Of a stretch of 33,461 bases of DNA, positions 2,451 through 21,539 are shown in pieces (within the stretch, counting starts at the first letter, position 1; the number at the start of each line of letters is the position of its first letter). Position numbers and translations under genes: made by a program. Source of the stretch: Oscillospiraceae bacterium (GTDB taxonomy: Bacteria > Bacillota > Clostridia > Oscillospirales > JAAYXM01); assembly GCA_017409405.1 (NCBI GenBank), contig JAFQSU010000061.1, positions 1-33,461 on the forward strand. Direction: 5' to 3'. Under the pieces are notes generated by a model that saw only the letters and a list, made by a program, of their open reading frames with translations, made no database searches and was not told the DNA's origin.

Positions 2451-2580
2451 TGTCATTCTGAGCGCCTTGCAGGGGACGGATGCCCACATCAAAGCCTCCC
2501 CTCAAGGGGAAGCCTTTCACGCAGGGCTACCCGTCTTGTCATTCTGAGCGGAGGACGAAGTCCGTTGTCGAAGAATCTCC
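2451..2580. repeat. Cluster of dispersed intergenic palindromic repeats
   Basis: Two copies of the 'gtcattctgagc' unit flank a 'cctcccctcaaggggaag' palindrome. Positions 2494-2553 (60 nt) are identical to 3713-3772, and 2478-2497 is identical to 3599-3618. The cluster therefore looks like a deletion derivative of the longer one at 3481-3796. It separates the AraC gene from the GH20 gene and could form RNA structure in a shared transcript. Confidence 0.85.
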
Positions 2581-2591
2581 GACACCCAACC

Positions 2592-3452: not shown

Positions 3453-3459
3453 GCGTATC

Positions 3460-3469
3460 TCACCTCCTT
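3460..3469 (-). promoter_or_regulatory. RBS supporting a TTG start of the AraC gene
   Basis: Reading leftward the sequence is AAGGAGGTGA, almost fully complementary to the 16S rRNA 3' end, followed by a 7-nt gap and TTG. This decides the rare start codon. Confidence 0.75.
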
Positions 3470-3480
3470 ATTATATAATT

Positions 3481-3796
3481 GTCATTCTGAGCGGAGGACG
3501 AAGTCCGCAGTCGAAGAATCTCATTGTCCCATACCCGTAGGGGATCCTTCGACAGGCTCAGGATGACAGCGTTGGTTATGTCATTCTGAGCAGGGGGCGG
3601 ATGCCCACATCAAAGCCTTCCCCTTGAGGGGAAGGTGCCGAGGGATGAGGCGGATGAGGTGGAAAAATAACGATTGCTTCGCAATCTACACCTCACCACC
3701 GCCTGCGGCGGAGCCTCCCCTCAAGGGGAAGCCTTTCACGCAGGGCTACCCGTCTTGTCATTCTGAGCGGAGCCGTAGGCGCAGTCGAAGAATCTC
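3481..3796. repeat. Long composite of dispersed palindromic repeats
   Basis: This 515-nt intergenic stretch contains no gene. Its left part is a chain of repeats: gtcattctgagc...gaagaatctc, an inverted counterpart (gatccttcgacaggctcagg), another gtcattctgagc, the ccttccccttgaggggaagg palindrome with its gatgaggcggatgagg tail, a second cctcccctcaaggggaag palindrome and a last gtcattctgagc...gaagaatctc. Spurious translations through it give Ser/Arg-rich peptides. It lies upstream of the leftward AraC gene and upstream of the promoter of the secreted-protein gene. Confidence 0.85.
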
Positions 3797-3967: not shown

Positions 3968-6448
3968 ATGAAAAAAGCACTTTCCCTTATCCTTGCGATT
4001 ATCATGGTCGTGGCTATGATACCTGCAGGGGCAATGGCGGCTGACGCAACCGCAGAGTCGTATACCTATAATTTTAAGAAAGGACTGCATGGCACCACAA
4101 CTCATTTGCAGCAATGCCTTGAATGGGAAAGCACTGACGCCGATGAAGGTGAGTGGATATGGGAAAGATATCTGCTTAGTGGCGGATACGCAAATGGAAC
4201 TAATCTTGGAACTACTTTAAAGGACGGCACTTACTGGTATAACTATAGGCCGAAGGTTACGAATCCGGGTGCAAAACCTGTATACTCTCCGGGAATCAAT
4301 CTTGCCAGTGACGAGTTTTTAATATATCTCACACTCAAAATAGAGGTTAAACAGTCTGGTACATATATTCCTTCGCTTTCACTTATAACAGAAAACTCTT
4401 CTCCGATGTGGGATGTTTACCTTACGAAAGCGGATACCTCTGTGAGTGAGCTTAATAACTCCCAATATATTAATTGGATTAACGCTCTTGATTCATCTGA
4501 CAGACTCGGAATGATTGACGGCTACGGAACTGGCGATTACGTAACAGAGACCTTCTTGAACCGCAAACTCGAAAAGGGTTCATATTATCTCGTTTTCATT
4601 GCAAACGGAAAGAATCCTTCTTGCACTTTTGATTTGGAATCAACAATCTATCGTATAGAGATTATCTTGAAAAACTTCATATTGAAGAATGTTAACGCAA
4701 AACCGGAAAGCTATACTTATAATATGACTTCCTCTGCACTTAAAGATCCTAGTACTGCTTCAACATATTGCGATGAAAAGACTGCTGATTTAGGGCTGGC
4801 GATAACAAATTTTGCCAACCTGACATACGATGTTGTCTCGGATACCGAAAATAAATTTGCGTATGGAGCGTCCATATATGCAAGAAACGGTGAAATAACT
4901 GAGCAGGGAATAAGTTTTTATTTATACCCGGATAGATATCTTTACATTGGATCCTACTTCAAGGATTCGGATGGAGACGGCATTAAGGATGCTCCGGATG
5001 TGGATGGGAGCACCAGTTCCTACTTGTCGAGCTCAAATGTGGCATTAAAAGTACAGGTTCCGACACAAGGAAAATACAAGCTTTATCTTTATAACAAAGT
5101 TGCCGATGAATATGGCTGTCTTGCCAACGTGTACTTTGCAGATTCACGCACTAATGATATTATGGATGACAGAACAAGCGAGTATTTCCTGGAAAACCGC
5201 TTTGACAGTGCGGTTGCTCATCCCGAGGGTGTTTATATTGGTGATGTAGAAGTTACAAAAGATAATGGTGAATACTACCTCATATTTACTGCGGATTCAC
5301 GTAAACAGACAAATACAAATAAAATCACTGTTGCTACAGGCAGAGATTGGCAGACGGTAAACCTCTCCGGAATTCGCCTCGAACCAATCACTGAAGAACC
5401 CTCTCCGGAGATTGTCGAAGCACAGAACAAGTTCAACGAAATAGAAACTGCAAAGAAAGCAGAAATCGCAACGGCAAAGAACGAGGGTCTTTCCGAAACA
5501 GCTTTTGTAAATGTCTTAAATACCTCAATCGACGGAAGCTTTTCAGAGCTTGAGGGTAAGATTGTTGCAACACGAGGTGAGGATGTAACCGTTAAGGCTG
5601 ACTCTTGGAGTGGCTATGACTTCCTCTACTGGAGACAGGGCTTGGGTGCAGATGCAAAGGTTATTGCAAGCAGCACTGAGTGCACTGTCAAGGCAGCACC
5701 GGGCACATGGCTCACGGCTGTATACAAACCGGCTTCTTCGACAGATGTTTCCGTTCTGTTCTACAATGCAGACGGTGAGATTATAGACAGTGACCTTGTT
5801 GCAAAGGACGAGACAATAACTTTCCCGTCGGCACCCACTGCACCTAAGGGTTGCGGCGAGTTCCTCGGCTGGGCACTCAACACACCGGATAACATTGTAA
5901 CAGAAGCAACGGCAGGCGGAAAGTCAATGGTATTTGTTGCACAGTTTGCAGCTTCAACAGAGAAGAACATCGCGGTTACCGTTAACGGCGGAGCAACAGG
6001 CGGCGGAAGCTATGCTTACGGCGAGACAGTTACAGTCACGGCAACAGAGCGTGAGGGTGGTAGCGGCTCTAACGTATTTGTCTACTGGAAGAAGGGTGAC
6101 GAGATAGTCAGCTTCGACAAGACATATTCCTTCCTCGCATGGGAGACCTGCACACTCACACCCGTATATGCCGCATACAAGCCGGTAACAGACGCTCTCC
6201 GCAAGATTATCGTCAGCGGCGACGGTACTGACCTCATGGCAGAGTTCATTGGTATCGGAAACGTTAAGGAAAAGGGCATTCTCTTTGATAAGAACAAGAG
6301 TGAAGACGTAACCTTTGCAAACGCAACACACAAGATTGCAATGACAAGTGACGGAAACTTCCTTTCTGCAATCAATGACATTGCAAACGGCGCAACCTAT
6401 ACAGGTTATGCTATCCTTTCCGATAACACGGTAGTATACGATAAGTAA
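3968..6448 (+). CDS. Secreted multi-module protein (826 aa)
   Basis: A Sec signal peptide (about 1-24, ending AGAMAA) is followed by two beta-rich modules (about 31-240 and 247-475). Both begin with 'YTYN' and share the layout of the giant protein's modules at 9756: an opening YTxxY strand, a 'VPTQGKYKLYLY'-type strand, then 'YIGDVEV...GEYYLIF'. Module 2 contains DSDGDG (D333, D335, D337), a calcium-loop-like motif. A short Ala/Lys/Glu-rich helical linker follows (about 485-520). After it come InlB/Flg_new-like strands ('FLYWRQ', 'FLGWALN', 'FVYWKK', about 535-735) and a C-terminal domain ending in 'YAILSDNTVVYDK'. There is no SLH domain, LPXTG motif or recognisable catalytic motif, so it is probably a released glycan-binding protein. 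AGGAGGA lies 8 nt before the ATG. It shares its promoter box with the GH20-giant operon. Confidence 0.85.
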   Translation: MKKALSLILAIIMVVAMIPAGAMAADATAESYTYNFKKGLHGTTTHLQQCLEWESTDADEGEWIWERYLLSGGYANGTNLGTTLKDGTYWYNYRPKVTNPGAKPVYSPGINLASDEFLIYLTLKIEVKQSGTYIPSLSLITENSSPMWDVYLTKADTSVSELNNSQYINWINALDSSDRLGMIDGYGTGDYVTETFLNRKLEKGSYYLVFIANGKNPSCTFDLESTIYRIEIILKNFILKNVNAKPESYTYNMTSSALKDPSTASTYCDEKTADLGLAITNFANLTYDVVSDTENKFAYGASIYARNGEITEQGISFYLYPDRYLYIGSYFKDSDGDGIKDAPDVDGSTSSYLSSSNVALKVQVPTQGKYKLYLYNKVADEYGCLANVYFADSRTNDIMDDRTSEYFLENRFDSAVAHPEGVYIGDVEVTKDNGEYYLIFTADSRKQTNTNKITVATGRDWQTVNLSGIRLEPITEEPSPEIVEAQNKFNEIETAKKAEIATAKNEGLSETAFVNVLNTSIDGSFSELEGKIVATRGEDVTVKADSWSGYDFLYWRQGLGADAKVIASSTECTVKAAPGTWLTAVYKPASSTDVSVLFYNADGEIIDSDLVAKDETITFPSAPTAPKGCGEFLGWALNTPDNIVTEATAGGKSMVFVAQFAASTEKNIAVTVNGGATGGGSYAYGETVTVTATEREGGSGSNVFVYWKKGDEIVSFDKTYSFLAWETCTLTPVYAAYKPVTDALRKIIVSGDGTDLMAEFIGIGNVKEKGILFDKNKSEDVTFANATHKIAMTSDGNFLSAINDIANGATYTGYAILSDNTVVYDK

Positions 6449-6471
6449 ATTTACAGCAAGTAAATAAAACA

Positions 6472-6508
6472 CAAAAAGTTCACCGAGAAAATCTCGGTGA
6501 ACTTTTTG
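6472..6508. terminator. Bidirectional rho-independent terminator
   Basis: A 16-bp stem (caaaaagttcaccgag / ctcggtgaactttttg) with a 5-nt loop carries A runs on the left and T runs on the right. It works on both strands between the convergent secreted-protein and AraC genes. Confidence 0.9.
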
Positions 6509-6514
6509 TGTCGG

Positions 6515-6600: not shown

Positions 6601-7470
6601 TTACGAGAGACGGTCATGAAACTTTTGCTCCGAAACACTCTGTCTGTATTCACTCGGCGATAAACCGTATGCGCGCCGAAATGCCGTGCAGTATGCCGCA
6701 ACGTTTTTAAAACCCACCTTTTCGGCAATAGCGGCAATGGATATGCTCGAATACATCAGCTCGTCAAGGGAGCGGAAAAGGCGTACTGAGTAGAGATAGT
6801 TTACAGGTGTTATATTAAAAAACTGCTTGAATTTTTTTGCGAAATATGTAGGCTCCATATACACAACCCTTGCAAGGTCGGAAAGTGAAAGATCTTCCGT
6901 GTAATGTGCGTACATATACTCGATGAGCGGAAAGAAAATCTGACCGCCGGAAGGGACATTGTCGTCGGGCACAATGGGCACTGCCACTGGGTTCTTGTTA
7001 ATCCGTGAAATGAGCTCTGCTACCAGACTGTTCAGAGAACCCTTTTTAGACGTTCCGCCCTTTGCGTATTCTGAAATTTCAGAGATAAGCTCAAGCATAT
7101 CGTCATCGGCAGGTAAACAGACAGGGTGCTTTGAAAGCTCTTTTTCGAGCTCTTTGTCCGTGACATAGAATCTTATTGAAACAGAGGAAATTGCACCGGT
7201 GTAGAGGTTTGTCGGAGTGTGAAGTGTGTTCTTCGGCTGCATGTAGATATGATTTTTTTTGAAATTCACTTTGCAATTGTTGATTTTCGTCGTGAACTCA
7301 TCACAGTCAATGACATAGTTGATTGAAAAATACGGATGAGAATGAACGGTAAATTCAGCAGGAGAAACGTAGTCAATATTACGCTTTCCCTTCAGAACAG
7401 CATTATCAAAGCTGTGCGCAGGGGAGTGACCAATCATTACGGAAACAGCATCAATCGGATAAAGAAACAC
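6601..7470 (-). CDS. AraC-family transcriptional regulator (289 aa)
   Basis: Paralogue of the AraC protein at 2592. It has an N-terminal sensor-like half and a C-terminal double HTH ('LSDLARVVYMEPTYFAKKF', then 'IAAIAEKVGFKNVAAYCTAF' and GLSPSEYR). I place the start at the GTG at 7470 (MFLYPIDAVSVMIGHS...), because AGAGGTG lies 6 nt upstream of it and this start aligns with the paralogue. An upstream in-frame GTG at 7479 would overlap that RBS. It is divergent from the GH20-giant operon, separated by about 400 nt that hold repeats and the conserved promoter box, so that operon is its likely target. Ligand unknown. Confidence 0.9.
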   Translation of the reverse strand: MFLYPIDAVSVMIGHSPAHSFDNAVLKGKRNIDYVSPAEFTVHSHPYFSINYVIDCDEFTTKINNCKVNFKKNHIYMQPKNTLHTPTNLYTGAISSVSIRFYVTDKELEKELSKHPVCLPADDDMLELISEISEYAKGGTSKKGSLNSLVAELISRINKNPVAVPIVPDDNVPSGGQIFFPLIEYMYAHYTEDLSLSDLARVVYMEPTYFAKKFKQFFNITPVNYLYSVRLFRSLDELMYSSISIAAIAEKVGFKNVAAYCTAFRRAYGLSPSEYRQSVSEQKFHDRLS

Positions 7471-7518
7471 ACAAAACACCTCTCTTATAATTCCTGATAG
7501 TTATACACGCCGTGTAGT

Positions 7519-7812: not shown

Positions 7813-7868
7813 CATACGGGTGAGGTAGGGTGTACAGAGATTCTTCTCACAACAAGGAGGAAGATAAA

Positions 7869-9731
7869 ATGGAAAGAACAACAGTCAATTTAACCTTAAA
7901 TATCGACAAAGAGCTTTTAGACGCGGCTTTGGTGCTTCGTGATATTCTCGGCTTTGAAGCAGGCGACGGAATTACGGTAACCGCCGAAATGTCCGACAAA
8001 ACAGGTGTTGTGTTGAAGGACGGCAAGGCTCATATATACTACGCACAAAAATATCTCTTCTTCCGAGAACTCGGACTTTTCGTCGAGTATGCAAGAAAAA
8101 CGGACGAATTTGAGCTTTGGGAAGACGGATATTTTGAATGCATTTCAGCTATGATAGATGCCTCCAGTGCCGCCGTACCCTCTGTTTCGGGAATGAAAAG
8201 ACTTATAAACCATCTTGCCGTAATGGGCTACAGTATGGTAATGCTTTACACCGAAGACACGATAAAGCTTTCCGATTACAAGTATTTCGGATACATGCGC
8301 GGCAGATACTCCGAGGACGAGCTTCGCGAAATAGATGATTACGCTTACAGGTACGGAATTGAGGTCATCCCGTGTATTGAATGCTACGGTCACATGGGGA
8401 AATACCTCATGTGGAATGAGGCGGCACCCATAAAAGACACAGCCAATGTCTTGCTGGCAAGGGAAGAAAAAACCTTTGAGTTCCTTGACAAGCTCATTTC
8501 AACCGTTTCCTCTTGCTTCAGGTCAAAGCGTATACATATCGGTATGGATGAAGCGTTTGATATGGGCAGAGGTAACTTCCTCACAAAGCACGGCTATGTT
8601 CCGATTTTTGAGATATTCAGCGAGTTTATGGAAAGACTTTGCAAAATCACCGACAAATACGGGCTTACCCCGATGATGTGGAGTGATATGTATTTCCGTG
8701 TAAATACAGACAACAACGGATATTACGGTAAGGATATCGTTGTTGCAAAGGAAGTTATAGACAGAGTCCCCGAGGGAGTAGAGCTTGTTTTCTGGCACTA
8801 CGGAGAAGAGCCGTACTGTGACAATTACATGATTAAAAAGCATAAAGAGTTCAACCGCAAGGTTATCTACGCAGGAGGCTTCTGGAGCTGGATAGGGCAT
8901 TTCCCGGAAAATAATTATACTCTCGATGCAGTGAGGTTTTCGCTTGATGCCTGCCGCAAAAACGACGTAAGAGAAGCAATGGCGACTGTCTGGCTGGGAG
9001 ACGGCTCGGAGTGTGATTTGTTCGCAAATCTCCTGCCGCTTTCGTTCTTCGCAGAGCTTTGCTACGATAACGGTGCGGACGATAAAAAGCTTAAAGAAAG
9101 ATTCGAGGCGACAACCGGCGGAGATTATGATGCATTCTTTGCCATGAGCAACTATCACAATACGTTTGAAAACGGTGAAGTATACGAAACCTTCCCACAG
9201 AGATTCATGGGAAAGCAGCTGTTCTGGCAGGATATCCTTGAAGGCTTATATGATACGCACTTCTTTAAAAAGCGCATGAGTGGACATTATGCCGAAAATG
9301 CAGAAAGAATGAAAAAATATTTCGGCGGCAAGTGGGATTATCTTTACAGGTTTGCAAGCCTTGTTTTTGATTATCTTTCAGAGAAGGCATACATTGCAGA
9401 AAATCTGCACCCTGCTTATAACGCAAATGACAGAGAACTTTTAAGAGCGATTTCCGAAACGCACATACCTGCTCTTATCGAGAAGACAAAGCTTGTTCAC
9501 AACATGCACAGAGAAATATGGCATGACAAGTTTAAGGCGTTCAGCTGGAGCCTTCTTGACGTAAGATACGCAGGCGTGGTCGCAAGATGTGAGACCGCAA
9601 AGCTCATGATTGACAGATACCTTGACGGAAGTCTTGATAAGATTGAGCAGCTTGAAGAGGTAAGGCTTGAAAAGCCTCTTGGCGGCTTCACTCATTACAG
9701 TATGATAGCAACACCGAATTTGAAAATATAA
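7869..9731 (+). CDS. Cytoplasmic GH20-type beta-hexosaminidase (620 aa)
   Basis: A GH20-like exo-hexosaminidase smaller than the enzyme at 194. A short N-terminal domain (about 1-85) precedes the TIM barrel (about 90-400), with 'MIDASSAAVPSVSGMKRL' at barrel entry, 'VIPCIECYGHMGKYL' in the middle and HIGMDEAFD carrying the catalytic pair D227-E228. The last 200 residues are mostly helical and include several Trp. It has no signal peptide, so it is cytoplasmic. The start is the ATG preceded by AAGGAGGAAGATAAA. An earlier in-frame ATG at 7830 has no RBS, and its reading lies in repeat-derived sequence. It is the first gene of an operon with the giant surface protein, whose RBS begins 12 nt after this stop. 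Substrate is inferred to be oligosaccharides released by that lyase and then imported. Confidence 0.88.
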   Translation: MERTTVNLTLNIDKELLDAALVLRDILGFEAGDGITVTAEMSDKTGVVLKDGKAHIYYAQKYLFFRELGLFVEYARKTDEFELWEDGYFECISAMIDASSAAVPSVSGMKRLINHLAVMGYSMVMLYTEDTIKLSDYKYFGYMRGRYSEDELREIDDYAYRYGIEVIPCIECYGHMGKYLMWNEAAPIKDTANVLLAREEKTFEFLDKLISTVSSCFRSKRIHIGMDEAFDMGRGNFLTKHGYVPIFEIFSEFMERLCKITDKYGLTPMMWSDMYFRVNTDNNGYYGKDIVVAKEVIDRVPEGVELVFWHYGEEPYCDNYMIKKHKEFNRKVIYAGGFWSWIGHFPENNYTLDAVRFSLDACRKNDVREAMATVWLGDGSECDLFANLLPLSFFAELCYDNGADDKKLKERFEATTGGDYDAFFAMSNYHNTFENGEVYETFPQRFMGKQLFWQDILEGLYDTHFFKKRMSGHYAENAERMKKYFGGKWDYLYRFASLVFDYLSEKAYIAENLHPAYNANDRELLRAISETHIPALIEKTKLVHNMHREIWHDKFKAFSWSLLDVRYAGVVARCETAKLMIDRYLDGSLDKIEQLEEVRLEKPLGGFTHYSMIATPNLKI

Positions 9732-9755
9732 AGTATAATTTATCAGGAGGTAACT

Positions 9756-12700
9756 ATGAAAAAAAGGATTATTTCTTTGGCACTTGCGCTGTGTATGATT
9801 ATCGCGCTTTTGCCGTCCATTCCGCTTGTAAGTGCGGATAACGGTTATACGTTTTTCTATGACCTGAATCCCAAAAAGATTACCAGCGACGGCAATCCTT
9901 ATGTATATGATAAGGAATTGTTTGGTTCTGAGTATACCCAGACTCATAATATGTGGGAGTATCTGTCAAAGACTACGGGTGCTGTCCGCGGCTATCCGGT
10001 CGGCAGTAAATTCGGTTGGCAGATAAGCAGCTCAAAGGCAGGGACATACGTTGCTATTGAGCTCAACATTCCCGAGGCAGGAGAATACACTGCTACATAC
10101 AACTACGGTGCACATAAAGTAGGTGCATTGGGCAGTCTGTATCTTCTTCCGCCGTCTGTCACTGACATTGCGGCAGGCATTGCTGACGACACATATAAGC
10201 TCAACAGTGACAATATAGACTACGACCAGGGAGTAGCAGGTGCAACGGAAATGCCACTGCTCACCCTGGATAAAAAGGTAACTGTTACAGATCAGACAAA
10301 GGGTAAGTGGAAGCTTATCATCTATTGTGTTGATAAGGTCAGAAACTGGGCGATGTACCCGATTTCGTTCACGCTTTCCTCCGGTAACGGTGCGATTCCG
10401 ATGGATATTTCTGCAGACTGCAATGAGGTTATTCTCGGCGAGTCCGAGGAAATAACGCTTTCCGGCTATATGAGCGACGGGACGGGATTTGCTGCTTCTA
10501 AGGTAGACAGCATTGTGTATACAGTAAAGGACGGCAACCCGGATGTTGCATCTGTAGATGCTAACGGAAAGGTTAAGGGTATCAAAACGGGCACAGAGGT
10601 AATAACCGTTACTGTAACAGCAGGGACTCACACGGTTTCAGATGAGGTTACCGTTGTGGTCGATGACATCGTAACAAACGGTAATTATACGTTCAAGTAT
10701 GACTTCAACCCGAAAAAGATTACTGCCGCAACACCTGCAGTAAACGAAACGGCATTGTTTGGCTCGGAGTATGCCCAGACATACAATATGTGGCAATATC
10801 TGACCAAAACCACGGGTGCTGTCCGTGGCTATGCGTTCGGTACGCAATACGGCTGGCAGATAAGCAGTAATGCATCGGGTAATTATGTTGCCGTTGAGCT
10901 CAACATTCCCGAGGCAGGCAAATACACTGCTACATACATCTACGGTGCACATACGGTTGGCGCAACGGGTGATTTGTATCTTCTTCCGCCGTCTGTCACT
11001 GACATCGCAGCAGGCATTGCGGATGATACATATAAGCTCAATAGCGAGCCTATAGACTATGACCAGGGAGTACCGGGAGCAAGAGAAATGGCACCGCTTA
11101 CTCTCCCTAAAAAGGTTGTTGTCAAGGAAAACATGACGGGCAAATGGAAGCTTATTATCAGATGTGTTGATAAGGTCAGGAACTGGGCAATGTACCCCGG
11201 CTCTCTCACGCTTTCCGCAGGCAGTGACGTGCTTCCGTTGGGAGTTACGGCTGAATATGATAATTCATCAGCTCTCCGCATAAATGAAACACGAAAGATT
11301 TCTGCTTCCGCCTATATGAGCGACGGAGAAACGCTGACTGTCGCTGATGCAGGTACGGTTTCGTACATTCTGAAAGAGGGCGGAGAGCATGCATCTGTTG
11401 ATGCTGACGGTGTTGTTACCGGACTCTCTGAGGGCACTGCAAAAATTGCCGTTTCCGTCACAAAAAACGGTGCTACGGTAGAATCAAAGCCTGTTGAAGT
11501 AAGCGTATCGAGCAAGGTGTTTAGTCTCGCTGATTATACCTTGAAGTATGACTTCAGCAAGACGGGCTCAAATATCAGATTTGAGGAAATTCCCGAGGAA
11601 AAAACCAACAACTTCTGGATGCCGCATTCGTATTCCTCACCGATATCAACACTGCGCTCCACAGGCTACGGTCTCCAGCTCGGAACCAATGTTGACCAGT
11701 GGGTTGCGCTTAAGCTTTACATTCCCGTTGCAGGTATTTATAAAACACGTTTCTGCAATCTGACGGGTACAAGCGGCGGTATAGGTGAGCTGTACATCGT
11801 TGACGGTGATACGGCAGATGTTGGCGGAGCGCTTTCAACAGCACAAAAGCTCGGCAAGGTATGCTTCTATTCCTCAAGCACGATATATAACAATTATTCG
11901 GATTTGAATAACGTCGAGTTTGAAGAGGCAGGCGAACATCTGCTTGTTTTCAAGGCTACTGCAAAGGGTGACGGCATAAATAACGTCGGCAGCTATAATA
12001 TGTACCCCACATCTATTGAGTTTATCGGTGCAGATGATGCGCAAACCGCAGTTACCAGCCTGTTTGTTTCAAAGAGCGATATTGAGCTTTCAATCGGCGA
12101 AACCGATACGGTTTCCGTAACTGAAGCATGGCTTTCGGATGTTAGAAAGGCAACATCGGAAGACTACACCGTTTCATTTGACAGCTCGGATGATAACGTT
12201 GCTACGGTTGATAACGGGCTTATAACTGCTGTCGGTGCAGGTGATGCTGTTGTTACGGTCACTGCAACACGCGGAGAGTCCTCCGTTTCACGCAAGGTTA
12301 AGGTAGCTGTTTTGCCTGAAACATATTCCGGCTTTACGGCAAAATATGACCTCACCGCAAATGCTGACTTTGCAACTGCTTCATACGCAGCAACAAAGAA
12401 TTTGTGGAAGTATAGCAGTGCAAGCGGTGCGGTCACCGTAAACGACGGATATATTTCATTTGGCGAGTCTGCTGATTCTTATGCAGAAATTAAGGTAAAT
12501 GTACCTGTTTCAGGCGAATATCAGATAAAGCTTTCCCACGCTCAGAGTGCATCGGGCGCAGTTGGTGCAGTGTACCTTGACGGAACCGAAGTAGGTGAGG
12601 TCGACTATTCTGCAGCGAGCGGAGAAGTAAAGCTCGCAGTTAAGAACATCACAAACGGAGAGCATACAATAAAGCTTGCGTGCAAGGATGGCGCAAACGG

Positions 12701-15700
12701 CTTTGTTCAGTCTCCGTCGGCGATTACGCTCTACGGCGGAAAGAAGCTTGCTCCCGTTGATGCAGACCTTTCCTTTAAGAACAACGCGGCAAGAGTTACA
12801 AAGATTTATCTTTCTGACGGAAGTGAGCTTGCTGTTGAAAATGCTTCCGTAAGCTACAGTATGGTCAGTGATTCAAATGCCGAGATCAATGCTGAGACAG
12901 GAAGTGTTGCCGCAGGTTCGACAGATGCTGAGGGCGATATTACTGCAAAGATAAAATACAACAATATTGAGTATTTTGAAACTCTTGAAAATGCAGTTAT
13001 AAGAGGTATTGACGAATCTGCGTACACACTCAATTATGTATTTAACAAAGCGGATTTGACAGACCATACACGTCTTCTCGGGGTTGACTATGATAAGACC
13101 TACGGCTTCTGGAAATATCATTCCTCAAATTTCGAGAATACAAGTATAAAAAAGGTAAGCTACGGTTTTTATCTGAGTCTTGCGGATAAAAAATGGGCGG
13201 CTATTACTATTTACGTTCCGGCCCCGGGCAGATACACAACTACTTTGAATTATCTCTGTGGTTCATCCGGCGGCAAGGGCGAAATTCACATTCTTCCGGG
13301 CGATACTGTTGATATAGAAACGGCTATTGCAAACGGTGAGTCGCAAAAGCTCAGTGACGTTATAAGCTTCTATGAGCCGGCAAGTACAAATAGATCTGCT
13401 TCTCTCCGCGATGCAAACTTCTTTGAAGCAGGCGAGTACATAGTCGTATTCCGAAGTGTAGGCAAGGGTGCTGAGGGTAGCTGGAATATGTACCCGACAG
13501 GCCTTGTCTTCAACGAAGCTGCGGCAAACCCGACGCTTCAGAGTGTTGTTGCAGACGATGTTGAAATCAGAGTAGGTGAAACGCTTGAGGCAGCACCTCG
13601 TGCGGTTTATCTTTCCGACTATACCACTGCGGCGGCAGGCACATATGAGCTTATGCTCCAATCCGGTGATTCCGAGACTGTTACGGCTGCAAATGCTTCG
13701 GTAACAGGTGTTAAAAAGGGTGTAACTTCTCTTGGATACACTGTCAAAAAGGACGGCGTTTCGGTAAAAGCATCTGCCGGTATCACTGTTTTCCCTGAAA
13801 CATATTCCGGCTTCAATGCAGTATATGACCTTACCGCAAACGACGGCTTCGCATCGGCTACGTATGAAAATACGCATAATCTGTGGAAATATCTCTCGGG
13901 CGACAATGTAGAAGTGGGAGAAAATTCCGTTTCCTTCGGTACAGGTACGGCTTCTGTTGAAATCTTTGTTCCTGTTGCAGGTGAGTACGATGTAAGGCTC
14001 TCATACGACAAGGCTTCTGACGGTGCTCTTGGTGCGGTATCAATTAACGGTCAGAAGATAGGAACTGTTGATTATAACGCTACTGAGGCGACAGCAGAAA
14101 ATGCTGTTCTCGGCTCTTACAATTTCGCTGAGGCAGGTAATTACACGGTTGAATTTACATGTGAAAGCTCACAAAGCGGAACAAAACAGCTTCCCGGCGT
14201 TCTTACACTCTACGGTGGAAGAAAGGTAGCTCCGGTTGACGCTGACGTTAACTTTGCGTTCAATATTGCAACCGTAACAAAAATATACATGTCCGACGGC
14301 AGTGAGCTTTCACCGGAAGAGGCTGTTGTAAGATATAGAATGGTCAGCGATTCAAATGCTGAAATCAACTTGGAAACAGGCAGTATTACAGCAGATTCCG
14401 AGGATGCAGAGGCTACCGTCACGGCAACGATAACATACAACGGTGTAAGCTATCCGAAATCGGTTGATGTTACGGTACGTGGTATAACAGAGTCTCCGTA
14501 CAACCTTAACTATAATTTCACTGATGCGGACATCAATGTCGAGGAACCGCTGTGGGGAGTAAAGTTCAGCCAGACAAAGGGCTTTTGGCAGTACAACTCC
14601 GCAAAGACGGAAACTGCAAGCAACAGATTGAAAAGCTACGGATTCTATCTTTCCATTGCTGCAGAGCACTGGGTTGCATTTGATATCTATGTTCCGGCTC
14701 CGGGCAGATATACAGCCGAGCTCACGCATCTTGCGGGTTCTTCGGGCGGCTTTGGTGAAGTCCATATTCTTCCCGCAGGAACAACGGATATAGATGCAGC
14801 TATTGCAAACGGCAATTCACAGAATCTCGGTGTTGTAAATTCTTATAATCCCACGACAATTTATCCCACAACTACTCTTCGTGATGCAAACTTCTTTGAA
14901 GCAGGCGAGTATATCCTTGTTTTCAAGAGTATTGCAAAGGGAGCAGGCGGTTCGGCTGCAATGTTCCCACAGTCACTTACGTTTAACAAAGCAAAGGATA
15001 AGTATGTTCTTCAGAGCGTGTTCGCAAACGATTATGAGCTTGAAAAGGACGAAGAACGCGTTATTTCTGTAAATAAGGTATATTATTCCGATTACAGCGA
15101 GGCTAGTATCGGGGAGTATACAATGAACGCGTTTACCGCGGATGAGAATGTTGCTGTTGTAAACAACGGAATTCTCAGAGGTGTCGGAGAGGGCACAACA
15201 ACGCTCATGGTAACGGCGACAAACAGTGACGGCACCGTTAAAACCGTGAAGAATGTAAATGTTCTCAACGTTGGTGCTTCCGGGTATACAATGCGTTATG
15301 ATTTTGCACTCTCAAAGGCTCAGAGCTATAAGGAATCAGTTTATACGGACACATATAATTTCTGGAAATTTGATTCTTCAAAGGCTGATAATCTCAACGT
15401 AGATACCGATAACGGAATCGTCTCTTTCGGAGAATCTGCAGAGGATTATGTCGCCTATGAGATTAACGTTCCATTCTCAGGCAAATACAAAATCGAGCTT
15501 GCCCACGGCACGTCTCCGGATGGTGCTGTCGGTTCGGTTTACCTTGGCAAGAGCATTGCCGATGCAGTGGAAGTCGGAGAAGTTGATTATAGCGGAGAAG
15601 CTGCATTTGATTCAGTTACGGCACTTGCGGAAACCGAATTTGATACAGCGGGCAAGTATTATGTAATCTTTAAATACAAATCGGGAACAGGCTTTGCACA

Positions 15701-18700
15701 GCATCCCGGCGCACTTTCTCTCGTCGGCGGCGGAAAGACAATGCCGATGGGCGTTGAGATTACGGCGGACGGCAATCTTGTTACTGCAGAATATGCGGTA
15801 ATGTCTGACGGTAGCATACTTTCACTTGACCGTACAGATGCCGATTATTCGCTTGAAGACAGCACGGTCGGAATCATAAACTCAAAGACCGGAAAGATTA
15901 CGGCAAGCAGTGTCGGAGGAACAACCAAAGCAGTTGCTTCTGTAGTTATAAATGGTGCTGCAGCAAGAGGCGAGACATCTGTAACCGTTCTCCCGGAAGA
16001 GTATACGGTATCTGACGCATATGCAAATTACAGATTCTATGAGCACAGTGCATCTTGGGCACAGCCACTCAGAGCACCCGATGACAAATACAGTAACTAC
16101 GATATCCGCGGAATCACACGTGAAGATACGGACGGAAACTGGGCTTGGTTCGGTTCATCGCCCGGTACAGCAAGCCGTTCGGGTATTGCGTATGCTTATA
16201 CAGCGAATGAAAGCGTACCGAGACTGCATCTTACGGTTTATAAGAATGAGTGGGTAGGCTTTGAAATTGATGTTCCGGCTGCGGGCACGTATCTTGCATC
16301 AATGACAAGTGCAAAAGGAAACCGTCCGGACGCAGGGCAGGCGGATATATACATTGTTCCGTTTACAGAGAATGCAACAAGCGAAGCTGTAAATGGAATG
16401 CTGACTGCAAAAAATTACGTTGGACGTGTTGACTTTGCCGAGAAGTCGATTACAAGCGGTACATGGGTGAATGACGTAAAGGACGTTCTTGGTGCGGTTG
16501 AGCTTAATGTAGCAGGAAAATACTTTGTCGTCTTCAAGAGTGCAACAGGTGATTTGGCAATGACTCTTACACCCAAAATGCTTATTCTTGACGGCAGCAG
16601 TAACAAGATTGCCTCGGTAGGTATATCTCTTGACAAAGACACATATGAGGTCGGGGAGGAGGGCACTTCTGAGTTTACTGCAAAGCTCCTCGACGGAACC
16701 GAACCCAATCTCTCAGGTGCAGGTGTTGTTTATGCTTCAAGTGATGAAAGCGTTGCAACCTTTGAGGATGGAAAAATTAAAGCGATTTCAAAGGGAACAG
16801 CCAAGCTTTCCGTAACCGTTATTTACGGCGGTGAAAGAATTTCTGCAAGCAAAACAATCACTGTTACGGATGCGGCAGATGTTGTAGGAATTGAGCTTTC
16901 GGCAGATAGCTACGGCTTTACGGAAGAGCGACTTGTGCTTTCTGTTAATAAGCTTCTTTCAAGCGGAAATAAGCTTCCGCTCGGCGATATTCCGGTCACA
17001 TTTGAAATCCTTTCAGGTGATGCGGAGATTGTAAACAGCAACCGTCTTATTGCTCATACTCCCGGAACTGTTGAGGTTCGCGCAAAGGCGGTTGTCAGCA
17101 GGGAAGAGAGAATAAGTCAGCCCATAAGCATAAACATTAAGCAGAGGACACAGAAGACTGCATCCACATATTATACAGAAGAGCGTCGCACAGCAGCTCA
17201 GAAGAACATGCAGACATATGATTGGGCAAAGAGCTCGCTTAAGACGACTTTGGGTTATGCAGATAAGTTCCTTGAAACTTATGAATATCTGTACGACCAT
17301 ATGGTAGGTGAAGGACTTCCGCGTTCACAGCGTGTCGGTGAAGAAGCTGACCCTGACATGTACAGACGCTGCCGTTACTGCGGAGTTGATATAACTACGC
17401 TTTACGGATCGGGTGCTTCCGGCGCGTATGATGTTGATATCTATAACAATAAGTGGAAGATTAAATGTCCTGATTGCAGACGTAACTTCCCGTCCAACGA
17501 CTTCGGAAGCTTCTTTGAACTCGGTAAGGATGAATACGGTTGCTTTGATGTAAATGTTGCAAGACAAAAGCACCATGAAATGCTTTTCCATGCCGACGGC
17601 TCTGTTTGCGATTGTAAGGCACCGACTGAGGAGTACACACCCGAGTGGTATATCTTCTACGGCTACGGCAATCCCAAAGGCTTCCTGTACAACGAAAGCT
17701 ATTCAGAAGTACGCGAAAGCAATAAGGATCCGCGCGGTGAAGCGATAACATGGAACGGAGAAACCGGTGCTGATCTCGGTACGTATACATCACCCAAGAC
17801 GGGAGAAGTCTGGACCGGCGGCTCCATATGGGGTGTAGATGACGGCCTCGGATATCTGCCGGGCAGAACGTATGCAAACGGTGCAAATGAGCGCCACAGC
17901 TATATTGCCGTTTACATGCATGAGCTCTGGCAGCAGGTAGACTATACAGTCAGATGGTTAAACCGCGGATATGTATTTTCCGGCGATCCGAGATACGGAA
18001 GAGCCGGCGCAATCATTCTTGACCGTATGGCAGACCTGTATCCGACCTTTGAACAGAAGCAGTGGGATAACATGTATCTTGTTTCTCACGGCGGCAGCGG
18101 ATTCGGTAAGATATTCGGATGTATCAACGACTGTGAATATGCTACATCATGGTCAACAGACGCCGACGGTCTTTATCCGATAGTTATGGCAAATGACCCT
18201 GAGGTTATTGCCTTCCTGTCCGAAAAGGCTCAGACCTTCGGCTTTAAGAGTAAAACAGGTAATCCGAAGACAAGCGGAGAAAAGATTTGGGCGAATGTCG
18301 AAGACGGCTTGCTTCGCGAAGTTTACAAATCCGTTAAAAATGGCAATCTCAACGGTAACTACGGACAGGAGCAGAAAGCTCTTGCCGCTGCTGCACTTGT
18401 ACTTGCCAACGAACCGGAAAGCCGTGATATAATTAACTTCCTCTATAAGCCCGGACAAAACTATAACAGAGGCAGCACGTCTGAAACAACGGGCGGAAAC
18501 CTGAGTGTACAGTTTATTGACGTCATTGACCGTGACGGTATGGGTAACGAGGCTGCGCCGAACTACAACCTCGGATGGATTGCAGACCTTTACGAATGTG
18601 CAGACATGCTCAGTATGTACAGTGAGGAATACGATCTTTACAAAGATGTAAAATTCGCAAAGATGTTTACCGCCGCGATACCTGTTGTTCTGACCGACGA

Positions 18701-21539
18701 CCACACGGTCCAGGTAGGTGATACAAGCTGGCCGGCAAGTATCGCAATTTCCGGAGATATGGAGCTTATCAAAAAGGGCTTTATGCACTTAAAAGACACA
18801 AATCTCGGAAACGAGCTTGCAGAGTATATTTACAGACAGAACGGATATAAGGTTGACGGCTTGCATTATGACCATTTCCATCCGGATCCTGACAGTCTTC
18901 AGGATGATGTGCTTGCATGTATTGATGATGATGTTCTTCCGAGAAGTGAAATGATGGCAGGCTACGGCTTTGCTGTCCTTCGCAACGGCGCCGAGTACAA
19001 AAGTGCGAACTTGTCGACGTATAATAACAATATGCGCGACTACTGGCTCTATTTCGGAAGAAACGCAGGTCACGGACACGAAGACTCGCTGACCTTAGGT
19101 ATAGAAGCTTTCGGTCTTAATATGGCTCCCGATAACGGCACACCTGAGGTTAAGAGTTCTACTGACCAGAACCGATACCAGTGGGTAGAACCGACAATTT
19201 CACACAATACGATAACCGTAAACGAAAAAGGTCAGGACGATATCGGCTTGCACGGATATCCGCTGCACTTTGATTCCTCTGACGAGGTTCAGCTTATGGA
19301 TATCGACGCGTCAAAGGCATATACAACAACGTCTATATATCGCAGAACGCTTGTTATGGTAGATGCAGGCGACGACGTTTCTTACGGTGTCGATTTCTTC
19401 CGTGTAAAGGGCGGAGATGATCATCTTTACAGCTTCCATAGCCAGTCTGAAGAAATTTACGAAACCGAGGGACTCGGAACTATTGAGTATCAGACGGATG
19501 ACGGCACGGCAAACGGAAACTATGTTGGCAGTTACGCCGGTGCAAATGTCGATTTCGGTCCGGATCCTTCAAAAACTCATGTTAAATCGGCATGGCACTA
19601 TCCTGCAGGTTATACATGGATGAAGAATGTAAGACGTGCAAAAGATGTCGGAAAGTTTGCTGTTGACTTCAAGGTCACGGACTACAGAAAGGTCCTCAAG
19701 GACGGTAACGGACTGCATCTTCGCATGACAATGCTCAATGACTTCGATTTACAGGAAGTTGCACTGACGAGCGGATATGTTACAAGAACATCCGGCACGA
19801 AGGGACTTCCCGAAACATTCGAGTATGTTATTGCACGACGTCAGGGTAAGAATCTTGATTCTCTCTATACGACCGTATATGAGCCATATCGAAATGACAG
19901 ATATATTTTAGATATGGAAGCTATTGACAACATTACAAGTCAGGGAACCGAGAAACCGGATGACACAGTGAAGGCTGTAAAGGTTATCCGCAAGGCAGAG
20001 GACGGTACTGCAGGAAGAGTAGATTACATCATTTACGCGACCAACAACAGTGTTCTCTACACGATAACGGATGATCAAAACAACGCTGATCCGACTGACG
20101 ATGTAAGCTTTAATTTCCGCGGCTTTGTGGGTGTTTACAGCTTGAATGCTGATGGATTTAATATCTATAATTATGTCCATGACGGCGATGTTATCGGTGA
20201 TGTTACAGATGCACCTAAGGCAGTTAGCGGAAAGGTTGTTGATTTCACGAAAACGCTTACATTCAATAATAACGTTGTGATTTCAACAGACAGCAGCGTT
20301 GATCCTGCAGCTCTTAAGGGAAAATATCTCTTTGTGGAAAATGACGGTAAACAAAATGCTGTTTATGAAATCAAGAGTGCAGAAGCAATTTCCGGCGGAA
20401 TAAATCTGAACATCGGTGCGACAACGCTTATCAGAGGACTTAAAGACACCTCAGATCCGTCCTCATATGTATTTAACATTGCTAAGGGACAGCTTGTTTC
20501 GATACCGCTTTCTGCAGAGGATGACAACGGTCCGGTATTTGCTGGTTCTGAAAGTGAACTGACAGCTACGGCCGGCAGTACGCTTGAAATGTCGGTAAAT
20601 GCTACGGCGGATGGTGGGGCATCTGTCGAGTATATTGCAACGACTCTTCCGAGAGGAGCTTCACTTGATAAGGCTACAGGAAAAATTACCTGGAAGCCGA
20701 CAGCTTCCCAGATAGGAACAAACCATTTTGCAATTACGGCACGCGATGAATACGGTCGTGAAACAACGGAACACTTTAATGTAATTGTTTACGGTTCAAC
20801 AACCGGTGCACCTTCACAAGGCGAAGATAACACAGGCTCGACTGATTCCACCGAAACACCCTCAGGCGGCGGTGCCGCACCTGCCCCGGATGAGGACGAT
20901 AATGCCAATACTCCGTCGGACGATGAAACCACACAACCTGATGATGGCGGCAACACCGACGTCCCGTCCAAAGGTTTTGTTGACCTCGGTAACCACGCAT
21001 GGGCGTCTGATGCCATCAACGAGCTTGCAGAGGCAGGTATCATCAAGGGCACAAGTGAAACAACCTTCTCACCGGCAAACAACATAACACGTGCCGACTT
21101 TGCAATACTCCTTGTCCGCGCATTTGGTCTTGAGAGTGACAATACCGAAAACTTCGCAGATGTTAGTGAGTCTGACTACTTCGCAGCCGAGCTTGCAATA
21201 GCCCGAAACTGCGGCATTGTCGACGGTATAGGTGATAACAAATACGCACCGCGAAATACCATCACACGTCAGGATATGATGGTAATAGTATATCGTGCAC
21301 TGCAAGTCCTCGAAAAAATGCCTTCCCCTCGAGGGAAAGGGGGACCGCTTGCGGTGGATGAGGTGGGAAGAACCTACCCCGATTTCACCAAAGTTGCACC
21401 TTACGCAACCGACGCCGTCTCTGCACTTATAACCGAAGGTTTAGTAAACGGCAAAAACGGTCTTATCGACCCGATGTCGTATACAACCCGTGCAGAGGTT
21501 GCAGTGCTTATAAAGCGCATATTGGATTACATTAAATAA
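9756..21539 (+). CDS. Giant SLH-anchored surface protein with heparinase II/III-type lyase (3927 aa)
   Basis: Signal peptide 1-27. Nine beta-rich modules start near residues 29, 308, 593, 856, 1089, 1349, 1581, 1842 and 2088, most followed by a Big_2-like Ig domain ('VASVDANGKVKGIKTGT' style). Two more Ig-like domains occupy about 2286-2462. The enzyme spans about 2465-3475. It starts with an alpha-toroid-like part containing a CxxC pair (C2539, C2542), a CPDC pair (C2571, C2574) and C2618/C2620. It then has 'GHGHEDSLTLGIEAFG' (H3106, H3108) and 'SHNTITVN', the hallmarks of the heparinase II/III beta-sandwich half. A putative-Ig domain (about 3592-3680), an acidic Thr/Ser/Pro linker (about 3682-3739) and three SLH domains (3740-3927) bind the wall polymer. 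It probably depolymerises a uronic-acid or amino-sugar polysaccharide at the cell surface. RBS AGGAGGT lies 6 nt before the ATG. SLH 2 carries a 20-residue repeat-derived insertion (3856-3875). The polymer cut is unknown. Confidence 0.88.
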   Translation: MKKRIISLALALCMIIALLPSIPLVSADNGYTFFYDLNPKKITSDGNPYVYDKELFGSEYTQTHNMWEYLSKTTGAVRGYPVGSKFGWQISSSKAGTYVAIELNIPEAGEYTATYNYGAHKVGALGSLYLLPPSVTDIAAGIADDTYKLNSDNIDYDQGVAGATEMPLLTLDKKVTVTDQTKGKWKLIIYCVDKVRNWAMYPISFTLSSGNGAIPMDISADCNEVILGESEEITLSGYMSDGTGFAASKVDSIVYTVKDGNPDVASVDANGKVKGIKTGTEVITVTVTAGTHTVSDEVTVVVDDIVTNGNYTFKYDFNPKKITAATPAVNETALFGSEYAQTYNMWQYLTKTTGAVRGYAFGTQYGWQISSNASGNYVAVELNIPEAGKYTATYIYGAHTVGATGDLYLLPPSVTDIAAGIADDTYKLNSEPIDYDQGVPGAREMAPLTLPKKVVVKENMTGKWKLIIRCVDKVRNWAMYPGSLTLSAGSDVLPLGVTAEYDNSSALRINETRKISASAYMSDGETLTVADAGTVSYILKEGGEHASVDADGVVTGLSEGTAKIAVSVTKNGATVESKPVEVSVSSKVFSLADYTLKYDFSKTGSNIRFEEIPEEKTNNFWMPHSYSSPISTLRSTGYGLQLGTNVDQWVALKLYIPVAGIYKTRFCNLTGTSGGIGELYIVDGDTADVGGALSTAQKLGKVCFYSSSTIYNNYSDLNNVEFEEAGEHLLVFKATAKGDGINNVGSYNMYPTSIEFIGADDAQTAVTSLFVSKSDIELSIGETDTVSVTEAWLSDVRKATSEDYTVSFDSSDDNVATVDNGLITAVGAGDAVVTVTATRGESSVSRKVKVAVLPETYSGFTAKYDLTANADFATASYAATKNLWKYSSASGAVTVNDGYISFGESADSYAEIKVNVPVSGEYQIKLSHAQSASGAVGAVYLDGTEVGEVDYSAASGEVKLAVKNITNGEHTIKLACKDGANGFVQSPSAITLYGGKKLAPVDADLSFKNNAARVTKIYLSDGSELAVENASVSYSMVSDSNAEINAETGSVAAGSTDAEGDITAKIKYNNIEYFETLENAVIRGIDESAYTLNYVFNKADLTDHTRLLGVDYDKTYGFWKYHSSNFENTSIKKVSYGFYLSLADKKWAAITIYVPAPGRYTTTLNYLCGSSGGKGEIHILPGDTVDIETAIANGESQKLSDVISFYEPASTNRSASLRDANFFEAGEYIVVFRSVGKGAEGSWNMYPTGLVFNEAAANPTLQSVVADDVEIRVGETLEAAPRAVYLSDYTTAAAGTYELMLQSGDSETVTAANASVTGVKKGVTSLGYTVKKDGVSVKASAGITVFPETYSGFNAVYDLTANDGFASATYENTHNLWKYLSGDNVEVGENSVSFGTGTASVEIFVPVAGEYDVRLSYDKASDGALGAVSINGQKIGTVDYNATEATAENAVLGSYNFAEAGNYTVEFTCESSQSGTKQLPGVLTLYGGRKVAPVDADVNFAFNIATVTKIYMSDGSELSPEEAVVRYRMVSDSNAEINLETGSITADSEDAEATVTATITYNGVSYPKSVDVTVRGITESPYNLNYNFTDADINVEEPLWGVKFSQTKGFWQYNSAKTETASNRLKSYGFYLSIAAEHWVAFDIYVPAPGRYTAELTHLAGSSGGFGEVHILPAGTTDIDAAIANGNSQNLGVVNSYNPTTIYPTTTLRDANFFEAGEYILVFKSIAKGAGGSAAMFPQSLTFNKAKDKYVLQSVFANDYELEKDEERVISVNKVYYSDYSEASIGEYTMNAFTADENVAVVNNGILRGVGEGTTTLMVTATNSDGTVKTVKNVNVLNVGASGYTMRYDFALSKAQSYKESVYTDTYNFWKFDSSKADNLNVDTDNGIVSFGESAEDYVAYEINVPFSGKYKIELAHGTSPDGAVGSVYLGKSIADAVEVGEVDYSGEAAFDSVTALAETEFDTAGKYYVIFKYKSGTGFAQHPGALSLVGGGKTMPMGVEITADGNLVTAEYAVMSDGSILSLDRTDADYSLEDSTVGIINSKTGKITASSVGGTTKAVASVVINGAAARGETSVTVLPEEYTVSDAYANYRFYEHSASWAQPLRAPDDKYSNYDIRGITREDTDGNWAWFGSSPGTASRSGIAYAYTANESVPRLHLTVYKNEWVGFEIDVPAAGTYLASMTSAKGNRPDAGQADIYIVPFTENATSEAVNGMLTAKNYVGRVDFAEKSITSGTWVNDVKDVLGAVELNVAGKYFVVFKSATGDLAMTLTPKMLILDGSSNKIASVGISLDKDTYEVGEEGTSEFTAKLLDGTEPNLSGAGVVYASSDESVATFEDGKIKAISKGTAKLSVTVIYGGERISASKTITVTDAADVVGIELSADSYGFTEERLVLSVNKLLSSGNKLPLGDIPVTFEILSGDAEIVNSNRLIAHTPGTVEVRAKAVVSREERISQPISINIKQRTQKTASTYYTEERRTAAQKNMQTYDWAKSSLKTTLGYADKFLETYEYLYDHMVGEGLPRSQRVGEEADPDMYRRCRYCGVDITTLYGSGASGAYDVDIYNNKWKIKCPDCRRNFPSNDFGSFFELGKDEYGCFDVNVARQKHHEMLFHADGSVCDCKAPTEEYTPEWYIFYGYGNPKGFLYNESYSEVRESNKDPRGEAITWNGETGADLGTYTSPKTGEVWTGGSIWGVDDGLGYLPGRTYANGANERHSYIAVYMHELWQQVDYTVRWLNRGYVFSGDPRYGRAGAIILDRMADLYPTFEQKQWDNMYLVSHGGSGFGKIFGCINDCEYATSWSTDADGLYPIVMANDPEVIAFLSEKAQTFGFKSKTGNPKTSGEKIWANVEDGLLREVYKSVKNGNLNGNYGQEQKALAAAALVLANEPESRDIINFLYKPGQNYNRGSTSETTGGNLSVQFIDVIDRDGMGNEAAPNYNLGWIADLYECADMLSMYSEEYDLYKDVKFAKMFTAAIPVVLTDDHTVQVGDTSWPASIAISGDMELIKKGFMHLKDTNLGNELAEYIYRQNGYKVDGLHYDHFHPDPDSLQDDVLACIDDDVLPRSEMMAGYGFAVLRNGAEYKSANLSTYNNNMRDYWLYFGRNAGHGHEDSLTLGIEAFGLNMAPDNGTPEVKSSTDQNRYQWVEPTISHNTITVNEKGQDDIGLHGYPLHFDSSDEVQLMDIDASKAYTTTSIYRRTLVMVDAGDDVSYGVDFFRVKGGDDHLYSFHSQSEEIYETEGLGTIEYQTDDGTANGNYVGSYAGANVDFGPDPSKTHVKSAWHYPAGYTWMKNVRRAKDVGKFAVDFKVTDYRKVLKDGNGLHLRMTMLNDFDLQEVALTSGYVTRTSGTKGLPETFEYVIARRQGKNLDSLYTTVYEPYRNDRYILDMEAIDNITSQGTEKPDDTVKAVKVIRKAEDGTAGRVDYIIYATNNSVLYTITDDQNNADPTDDVSFNFRGFVGVYSLNADGFNIYNYVHDGDVIGDVTDAPKAVSGKVVDFTKTLTFNNNVVISTDSSVDPAALKGKYLFVENDGKQNAVYEIKSAEAISGGINLNIGATTLIRGLKDTSDPSSYVFNIAKGQLVSIPLSAEDDNGPVFAGSESELTATAGSTLEMSVNATADGGASVEYIATTLPRGASLDKATGKITWKPTASQIGTNHFAITARDEYGRETTEHFNVIVYGSTTGAPSQGEDNTGSTDSTETPSGGGAAPAPDEDDNANTPSDDETTQPDDGGNTDVPSKGFVDLGNHAWASDAINELAEAGIIKGTSETTFSPANNITRADFAILLVRAFGLESDNTENFADVSESDYFAAELAIARNCGIVDGIGDNKYAPRNTITRQDMMVIVYRALQVLEKMPSPRGKGGPLAVDEVGRTYPDFTKVAPYATDAVSALITEGLVNGKNGLIDPMSYTTRAEVAVLIKRILDYIK
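9840..16614 (+). repeat. Intragenic array of nine paralogous modules
   Basis: Modules 1 and 2 are near-identical in places at DNA level (ttcttccgccgtctgtcact at both 10143 and 10980). Modules 3, 5 and 7 form one type ('SSGGKGEIHILPGDT', 'LRDANFFEAGEYI'). Modules 4, 6 and 8 form a shorter type ('TYSGFTAKYDLTAN', 'GAVGAVYLDGTEVGEVDYSA'). Starts of like modules recur every 1476-1486 nt, so 3-8 look like a two-module block present three times. Module 9 is the most divergent. Confidence 0.85.
17150..20180 (+). other. Heparinase II/III-type lyase region within the giant gene
   Basis: Approximate extent of the catalytic part (residues about 2465-3475). It opens with 'YYTEERRTAAQKNMQTYDW', typical of the helical toroid start in this superfamily. 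The toroid core includes 'ERHSYIAVYMHELWQQ' and the sandwich half includes GHGHEDS. In characterised relatives, His and Tyr residues of these halves perform beta-elimination next to a uronate. The specific PL family cannot be assigned by eye. Confidence 0.75.
21320..21376 (+). repeat. Intergenic-type palindromic repeat inserted in frame in the SLH coding region
   Basis: The DNA ccttcccctcgagggaaagg followed by gggaccgcttgcggtggatg and aggtggg belongs to the same family as the intergenic copies at 3613 and 24063. Here it is translated as PSPRGKGGPLAVDEVG between two halves of SLH 2/3 spacing. The frame is kept (60 nt, 20 codons). Confidence 0.8.

Follow-up and report, generated by a model that had tools for sequence, protein, structure and literature searches.

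A giant SLH-bearing protein with nine carbohydrate-binding-like modules and a heparinase II/III-like core is one copy of a multiplied, companion-paired family in an Oscillospiraceae bacterium

What would a gut bacterium do with a 3927-residue protein, encoded in one uninterrupted 11.8-kb reading frame, when heparinase II/III-type lyases, which part of it resembles, usually span 600-1000 residues? We address this question using the 33,461-nucleotide contig that carries the gene (GenBank JAFQSU010000061.1; hereafter, the window) and related genomes, all of which appear to be metagenome assemblies. In the reading that we favor, and to which we give a probability of roughly 0.7, the product is a secreted polysaccharide lyase that would be held on the cell surface by SLH domains, with nine modules binding one uronic-acid polymer and a core cutting it by beta-elimination, and it would represent one copy of a multiplied family with swappable heads.

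The frame is open from start to stop, as the preliminary description of this DNA had stated, and AGGAGG at 9745-9750, just 5' of the ATG, constitutes a good ribosome site. Chance or a frameshift artefact as the source of 3927 codons was ruled out by the length of the frame together with its domain order, in which a signal peptide is followed by nine beta-sandwich/Ig-like pairs, a heparinase II/III-type core, a He_PIG domain and three SLH domains. The features of the gene are as follows.

9756 to 21539, plus strand: giant lyase gene, 3927 residues, ~424 kDa; open frame from ATG at 9756 to TAA at 21539.
9756 to 9836, plus strand: signal peptide, residues 1 to ~27, MKKRIISLALALCMIIALLPSIPLVSADNG, read by eye from the sequence rather than with a cleavage-site tool.
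9828 to 10538, plus strand: module 1, type A, with Ig-like domain; profile, and predicted CBM-like beta-sandwich plus Ig fold.
10668 to 11372, plus strand: module 2, type A; profile, 62% identity to module 1.
11517 to 12209, plus strand: module 3, type B; profile.
12315 to 12884, plus strand: module 4, type C; profile, with a CBM_35 match (0.0019) under the gathering score.
13008 to 13685, plus strand: module 5, type B; profile.
13794 to 14357, plus strand: module 6, type C; profile.
14484 to 15164, plus strand: module 7, type B; profile.
15267 to 15869, plus strand: module 8, type C; profile.
15999 to 16748, plus strand: module 9, type D; profile.
17148 to 20540, plus strand: predicted catalytic core, alpha-toroid plus antiparallel beta-sheet domain, residues ~2465-3595; alignment of 45 cores, structural model, and fold matches to PL40 and PL17.
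17370 to 17477, plus strand: CxxC-x28-CxxC (C2539, C2542, C2571, C2574), a zinc-ribbon-like insert in the toroid domain; 45 of 45 cores.
19068 to 19088, plus strand: GHGHEDS, residues 3105-3111, with the putative catalytic His3106 and metal-side His3108; alignment column counts, roles from the PL40 study (PMC12915356).
20550 to 20789, plus strand: He_PIG Ig-like domain, residues 3599-3678; Pfam 1.1e-10.
20976 to 21503, plus strand: three SLH domains; Pfam SLH 9.8e-28, three copies.

Both ends of the protein bear out the preliminary description, which had noted a signal peptide and three C-terminal SLH domains. A gene for the CsaB pyruvyl transferase of wall pyruvylation (csaB) matched above the cut-off in five genomes, and the combination of three SLH domains in the lyase and csaB in the genome is that of an SLH-anchored surface protein; the SLH domains would hold the giant lyase on the cell surface. 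SLH domains are abundant in this genome (87 matches overall, part of them in short frames), and Monoglobus pectinilyticus, as an SLH-rich pectin specialist, may be comparable. Two more secreted SLH proteins, to which we assign no function, are encoded in the window at 27766-29154 and 29261-32146, both on the minus strand. Sequence identity falls along a gradient from the anchor outward: the SLH part is mostly 60-69% identical wherever the full stretch exists, the window core is 37-52% identical to those of other giants in its own genome, and modules are mostly 12-30% identical to module 1.

A profile iterated from the window returned exactly nine modules, the number of repeated beta-rich units first proposed, with starts at residues 25, 305, 588, 854, 1085, 1347, 1577, 1838 and 2082. 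Each consists of a CBM-like beta-sandwich and an Ig-like (Big_2) domain. Their types, four in all, run A A (B C)(B C)(B C) D, a pattern suggesting that a unit of two modules was duplicated as the array grew. The model of module 1 with its Ig domain (pLDDT 89.7) places the beta-sandwich closest to modules of a Paenibacillus xanthan lyase and MiXBM (6f2p, Z 13.4; 7ehg, Z 12.8; rmsd 2.4-2.7) and the second half closest to Big_2 folds. Assignment to CBM35 was rejected, the Pfam CBM_35 score being 19 bits against a cut-off of 28 and confined to a single module. We therefore describe the modules as CBM-type beta-sandwiches by predicted fold, a match that names neither a family nor a ligand. At the outward, N-terminal end of the protein, the nine modules would hold one uronic-acid polymer.

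The catalytic part was searched for by domain, fold and residue. Pfam Hepar_II_III_C (PF07940) matches the window lyase at 1.5e-7 (31.6 bits against a cut-off of 24), in agreement with the heparinase II/III-like part first described, and 43 of 45 aligned cores match at E<=0.01. This alignment draws its 45 rows from eight genomes; two of the rows (L043 and L050) are one and the same gene. The region had been thought to end at residue 3475; it runs instead from ~2465 to 3595. Structure prediction, which the preliminary description had proposed, yielded, with the 45-core alignment as input, an alpha-toroid plus antiparallel beta-sheet fold (residues 2441-3600; pLDDT 87.9, pTM 0.87). In a VIA-align comparison, the PL40 ulvan lyase Uly1040 (PDB 9vtk) came out on top (Z 34.6, rmsd 3.5, 722 residues), followed by PL17 alginate lyases at Z 31-33 (Alg17C at ~33) and by PL12, PL39, PL15, PL35, PL21 and PL33 at Z 21-27; matches to PL40, PL17, PL12, PL15, PL39 and PL21 structures cover both core domains. 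Among sequence profile matches, AlgL17 of PL17 was best (1.5e-15) and Uly1040 scored 2.2e-10, the match to one PL40 structure at that value lying mainly in the beta-sheet domain. Likeness in sequence to characterized lyases is weak beyond the catalytic motif, and identity to Uly1040 is 13%. By domain, predicted fold and predicted catalytic triplet, the core belongs to the heparinase II/III-like lyases (PF07940 superfamily).

GHGHEDS lies at 3105-3111, as first reported, and SHNTITVN, for which only a later position had been given, at 3149-3156. In the PL40 study, structure, docking and mutants assign Asn245 to neutralization of the carboxylate, Tyr305 to the acid, and His485, Asp358 and His487 to forming and tuning the base (PMC12915356). 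A PL40-type Asn/Tyr/Asp/His/His network is present in the window at 2868, 2937, 2989, 3106 and 3108, with the first three upstream of GHGHEDS; equivalence was set by sequence alignment rather than by superposed active-site atoms. Asn2868, Tyr2937, His3106 and Asn3151 occur in all 45 cores, and Asp2989 (43), His3150 (42), His3108 (41) and Asp3126 (41) are nearly invariant. By analogy with PL40, Asn2868 would neutralize the carboxylate and Tyr2937 would protonate the leaving oxygen; the C5 proton would go to His3106, which Asp2989, His3108 and a metal would tune. The Trp (or His) that PL40 enzymes have beside the catalytic Asn is absent from the window, which has Tyr; at the position of Trp246 of Uly1040, 39 of the 45 cores have Phe (29) or Tyr (10), and one has Trp. 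The PL17 enzymes Alg17C and AlgL17 share the GHGH(F/E)D motif with the core, but simple assignment to PL17 was rejected, since neither neighbor of the catalytic Asn is His (GNYG in the window), the residue listed as adjoining it in PL17 (PMC12088678).

The CxxC-x28-CxxC motif at 2539-2574 had escaped the preliminary description, as had the paralogous and companion families treated below. Uly1040 is a marine enzyme of 856 residues described as two-domain, and the available part of its description mentions no such insert. Two proteins (L081 and L097), from one genome in a distantly related family of the phylum, are free-standing, full-length cores with the four cysteines and a GN.GMHQ motif. They differ from the giants in having only 1041-1054 residues, which leaves no room for modules or SLH domains, and they are likely a simpler relative. 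A motif scan of the other weaker relatives fetched did not find the four-cysteine insert, and a search of the genome of L081 and L097 did not find the companion family.

The giant is not alone in its genome, where PF07940 has 21 matches: 20 in long open frames, several ending at contig ends, and one minimal form. Together these loci amount to 157.8 kb, or 8.1% of the 1.94-Mb assembly. The other genomes of the genus have 59, 1, 69 and 57 matches, the three high counts belonging to sister species, and other genera of the family have 1-10. The genome with one lyase (G002), a 1.4-Mb assembly, has two companions; the expansion is hence uneven within the genus. In a sample of 299 genomes from the phylum, 35 had any match, and outside the family there were at most 11 first-look candidates per genome, the longest frame being 1441 residues, which agrees with the usual size range given at the outset. 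Paralogues of different species interleave in the core tree (at least 10 changes for the window's genome), indicating that many duplications predate the species or that genes were exchanged between species. Two cross-species core pairs, L031/L046 and L032/L069, are near-identical (branch lengths 0.009-0.032), possibly through recent transfer or strong constraint; the remaining cross-species neighbors differ by 0.1-0.2 each. In a sister genus, the gene at L043:9566-16780(+) has the inverted order, with an N-terminal core followed by four modules, and a second lyase gene lies directly downstream. The longest branch of the tree is the minimal form of 969 residues (L039:7052-9961(-)), which starts without a signal peptide, has neither modules nor SLH domains and is surrounded by housekeeping genes; it may act in the cytoplasm as a lyase on oligosaccharides taken up by the cell.

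A second family accompanies the lyases. The upstream part of the window contains one of its members.

194 to 2392, minus strand: GH20 enzyme, no signal peptide seen; profile match, start read from the sequence.
2592 to 3452, minus strand: AraC-type regulator; profile match.
3968 to 6448, plus strand: companion-family gene, 826 residues, secreted, two modules plus a conserved C-terminal region; profile, module comparison.
5492 to 6445, plus strand: conserved companion C-terminal region, InlB-B-repeat-like, with no curated family of its own; profile search.
6601 to 7479, minus strand: AraC-type regulator; profile match.
7830 to 9731, plus strand: GH20C-type beta-N-acetylhexosaminidase, ending 24 bases 5' of the lyase, without a visible signal peptide; Glyco_H_20C_C 4.5e-39.

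Companions are secreted, mostly ~730-920 residues long where complete, and combine two modules of the same kind as those of the lyases with an unannotated C-terminal region of ~310 residues that resembles InlB B-repeats. Of the 20 giant loci in the window's genome, 15 have a companion on the same strand, and the other five are at or near contig ends. Companion and lyase counts per genome (22/21, 69/59, 2/1, 66/69, 49/57, 5/10, 0/1, 1/3 and 3/8) have a Spearman coefficient of 0.95, which is descriptive only because the genomes are related. Of 111 lyases listed in the three sister species, at least 49 have a companion no more than 10 kb upstream on the same strand, at least 7 have one downstream and at least 8 have one only farther away; none of the matches listed is on the opposite strand, and for 47 no companion is listed on the contig. 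The heads of a companion match those of the neighboring lyase above all 21 others in 11 of 14 pairs (permutation p ~1e-5), and above any other companion in 10 of 14. Duplication of the pair as one unit found no support, because core and companion C-terminal distances are uncorrelated (Mantel r 0.06, p 0.25; 14 pairs). Likeness of heads in the absence of such co-divergence makes it appear that heads are exchanged locally between neighbors. In each copy of the family, a head set of its own would be mounted on a common core and anchor, and in most cases a secreted companion with related heads would be the neighbor. The window companion and lyase were rejected as a matched pair, the lyase ranking 12th of 22. 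An AraC gene and a very strong 20-bp hairpin (6468-6512) lie between them; the hairpin, in the interval between the companion and AraC genes, is probably a terminator between these two converging genes.

Long stalks of beta-modules with Ig and SLH domains, highly varied heads and tens of copies per genome could also be expected of adhesins or S-layer-like surface proteins. In that view the core would persist for structural support or as a lectin, and the heads would attach the cell to surfaces of plants, mucus or bacteria, or would vary its own surface. We consider this improbable: the catalytic Asn, Tyr and His persist in every core sampled while the remainder falls to ~40% identity, and pure adhesins would be expected to drop them in some copies, although the few copies lacking a metal-side residue could be inactive. 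Far less probable still is that mixing of strains in bins, or counting of fragments, produced the copy number itself. The assemblies are indeed fragmented (80-200 contigs in the genus) and several lyases stop at contig ends; however, the 37-52% identity of the genome's other giant cores to the window core is not that of strain variants, contamination of the window's genome is 0.37%, most frames run for 2000-3900 residues without stops, some loci have housekeeping neighbors (spoIVA and the gene for formate-THF ligase are examples), and breaks at the conserved SLH part would more likely reduce the count. A surface lyase that binds and cleaves a long polymer near the wall, as the preliminary description had proposed, is the best reading of the predicted fold, the conserved catalytic residues, the CBM-type modules and the SLH domains with csaB; the anatomy in that proposal stands, and its activity is to be read as probable.

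The cell would take up the oligosaccharides released by the surface lyase and complete their breakdown internally. In favor of uptake are the solute-binding proteins that adjoin several lyases and the minimal copy, which has neither signal peptide nor SLH domains; GH88/105-type genes, at 1-4 per genus genome against dozens of lyases, count against our reading, and none were found in three other family members. The solute-binding protein, extracellular and 503-520 residues long, recurs at eight of the loci fetched (L022:4242-5801, L024, L028, L033, L034, L038, L040 and L041) and is itself a multiplied family.

As to the substrate, the two neighboring GH20 genes suggest, with low confidence, an unsulfated uronate-hexosamine polymer for the window lyase. 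No GH20 was found beside those other lyase loci that were scanned, so this guess draws on the window only; one locus has a GH127. Sulfated GAGs as a general substrate are disfavored by sulfatase matches of just 1-2 per genome. At L041:2387-4207(+), a GH127 beta-L-arabinofuranosidase, together with a GFO/IDH/MocA oxidoreductase, lies upstream of a companion-lyase pair. The GH20s of the window set against the GH127 and oxidoreductase of L041, with few GH88 and sulfatase matches, suggest that substrates differ between loci. That the lyases act chiefly on plant cell-wall material (side chains of pectin, glucuronates of arabinogalactan-proteins) rather than on hexosamine-containing polymers is a tenable minority view, to which this GH127 and the goat rectum origin of one relative's assembly lend weight; the GH20s adjoining the window lyase speak against it, and both may hold if loci differ in substrate. 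Uronate-bearing capsules are highly diverse. Capsules or exopolysaccharides of other gut bacteria would, with this diversity, explain dozens of heads on one chemistry, and the near absence of sulfatases and the best structural match of the module, from a lyase for the bacterial exopolysaccharide xanthan, point the same way; as that predicted fold match conveys no ligand information, we regard such substrates as rather unlikely.

Our literature searches, which covered neither subscription papers nor preprints, found no description of this lyase family or of its expansion. The novelty is in the very large paralogous lyase family with its companion family more than in the domain combination, because a 201-kDa multidomain PL39 alginate lyase of 1799 residues, Dp0100 of Defluviitalea phaphyphila, has a related fold (Z 26.9) and CBM-type domains (PMC9971899). 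Dp0100 is half the size with an N-terminal catalytic part, and the available portion of that account mentions neither SLH domains nor multiplication of the family nor a companion paired with the enzyme (PMC9971899). The tens of paired genes, each a giant anchored lyase with a secreted companion, may form a Gram-positive glycan-harvesting system in which local sharing and swapping of heads between partners would direct each pair to another uronate glycan, with core and anchor unchanged; we advance this tentatively and would not bet on it. The SusC/SusD proteins of Bacteroides are paired surface families present in dozens of copies, with one pair per glycan. The system proposed here would be a counterpart of their multiplication built on one lyase chemistry. 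Both have a repeated two-gene surface unit in dozens of copies; the proteins themselves, however, are unrelated to SusC and SusD, and the unit here pairs a lyase anchored at the surface with a secreted binding protein, the two having heads in common.

That a bacterium commits approximately one-twelfth of its assembled genome to a single type of enzyme suggests a gut habitat whose uronate polymers are so varied and so valuable that dozens of dedicated surface lyases can be maintained on them. With core and anchor varying far less than the heads, the family offers a ready series for studying how binding heads set lyase specificity. The nearly one-to-one occurrence of companions with lyases raises the testable question of whether each pair binds one glycan.
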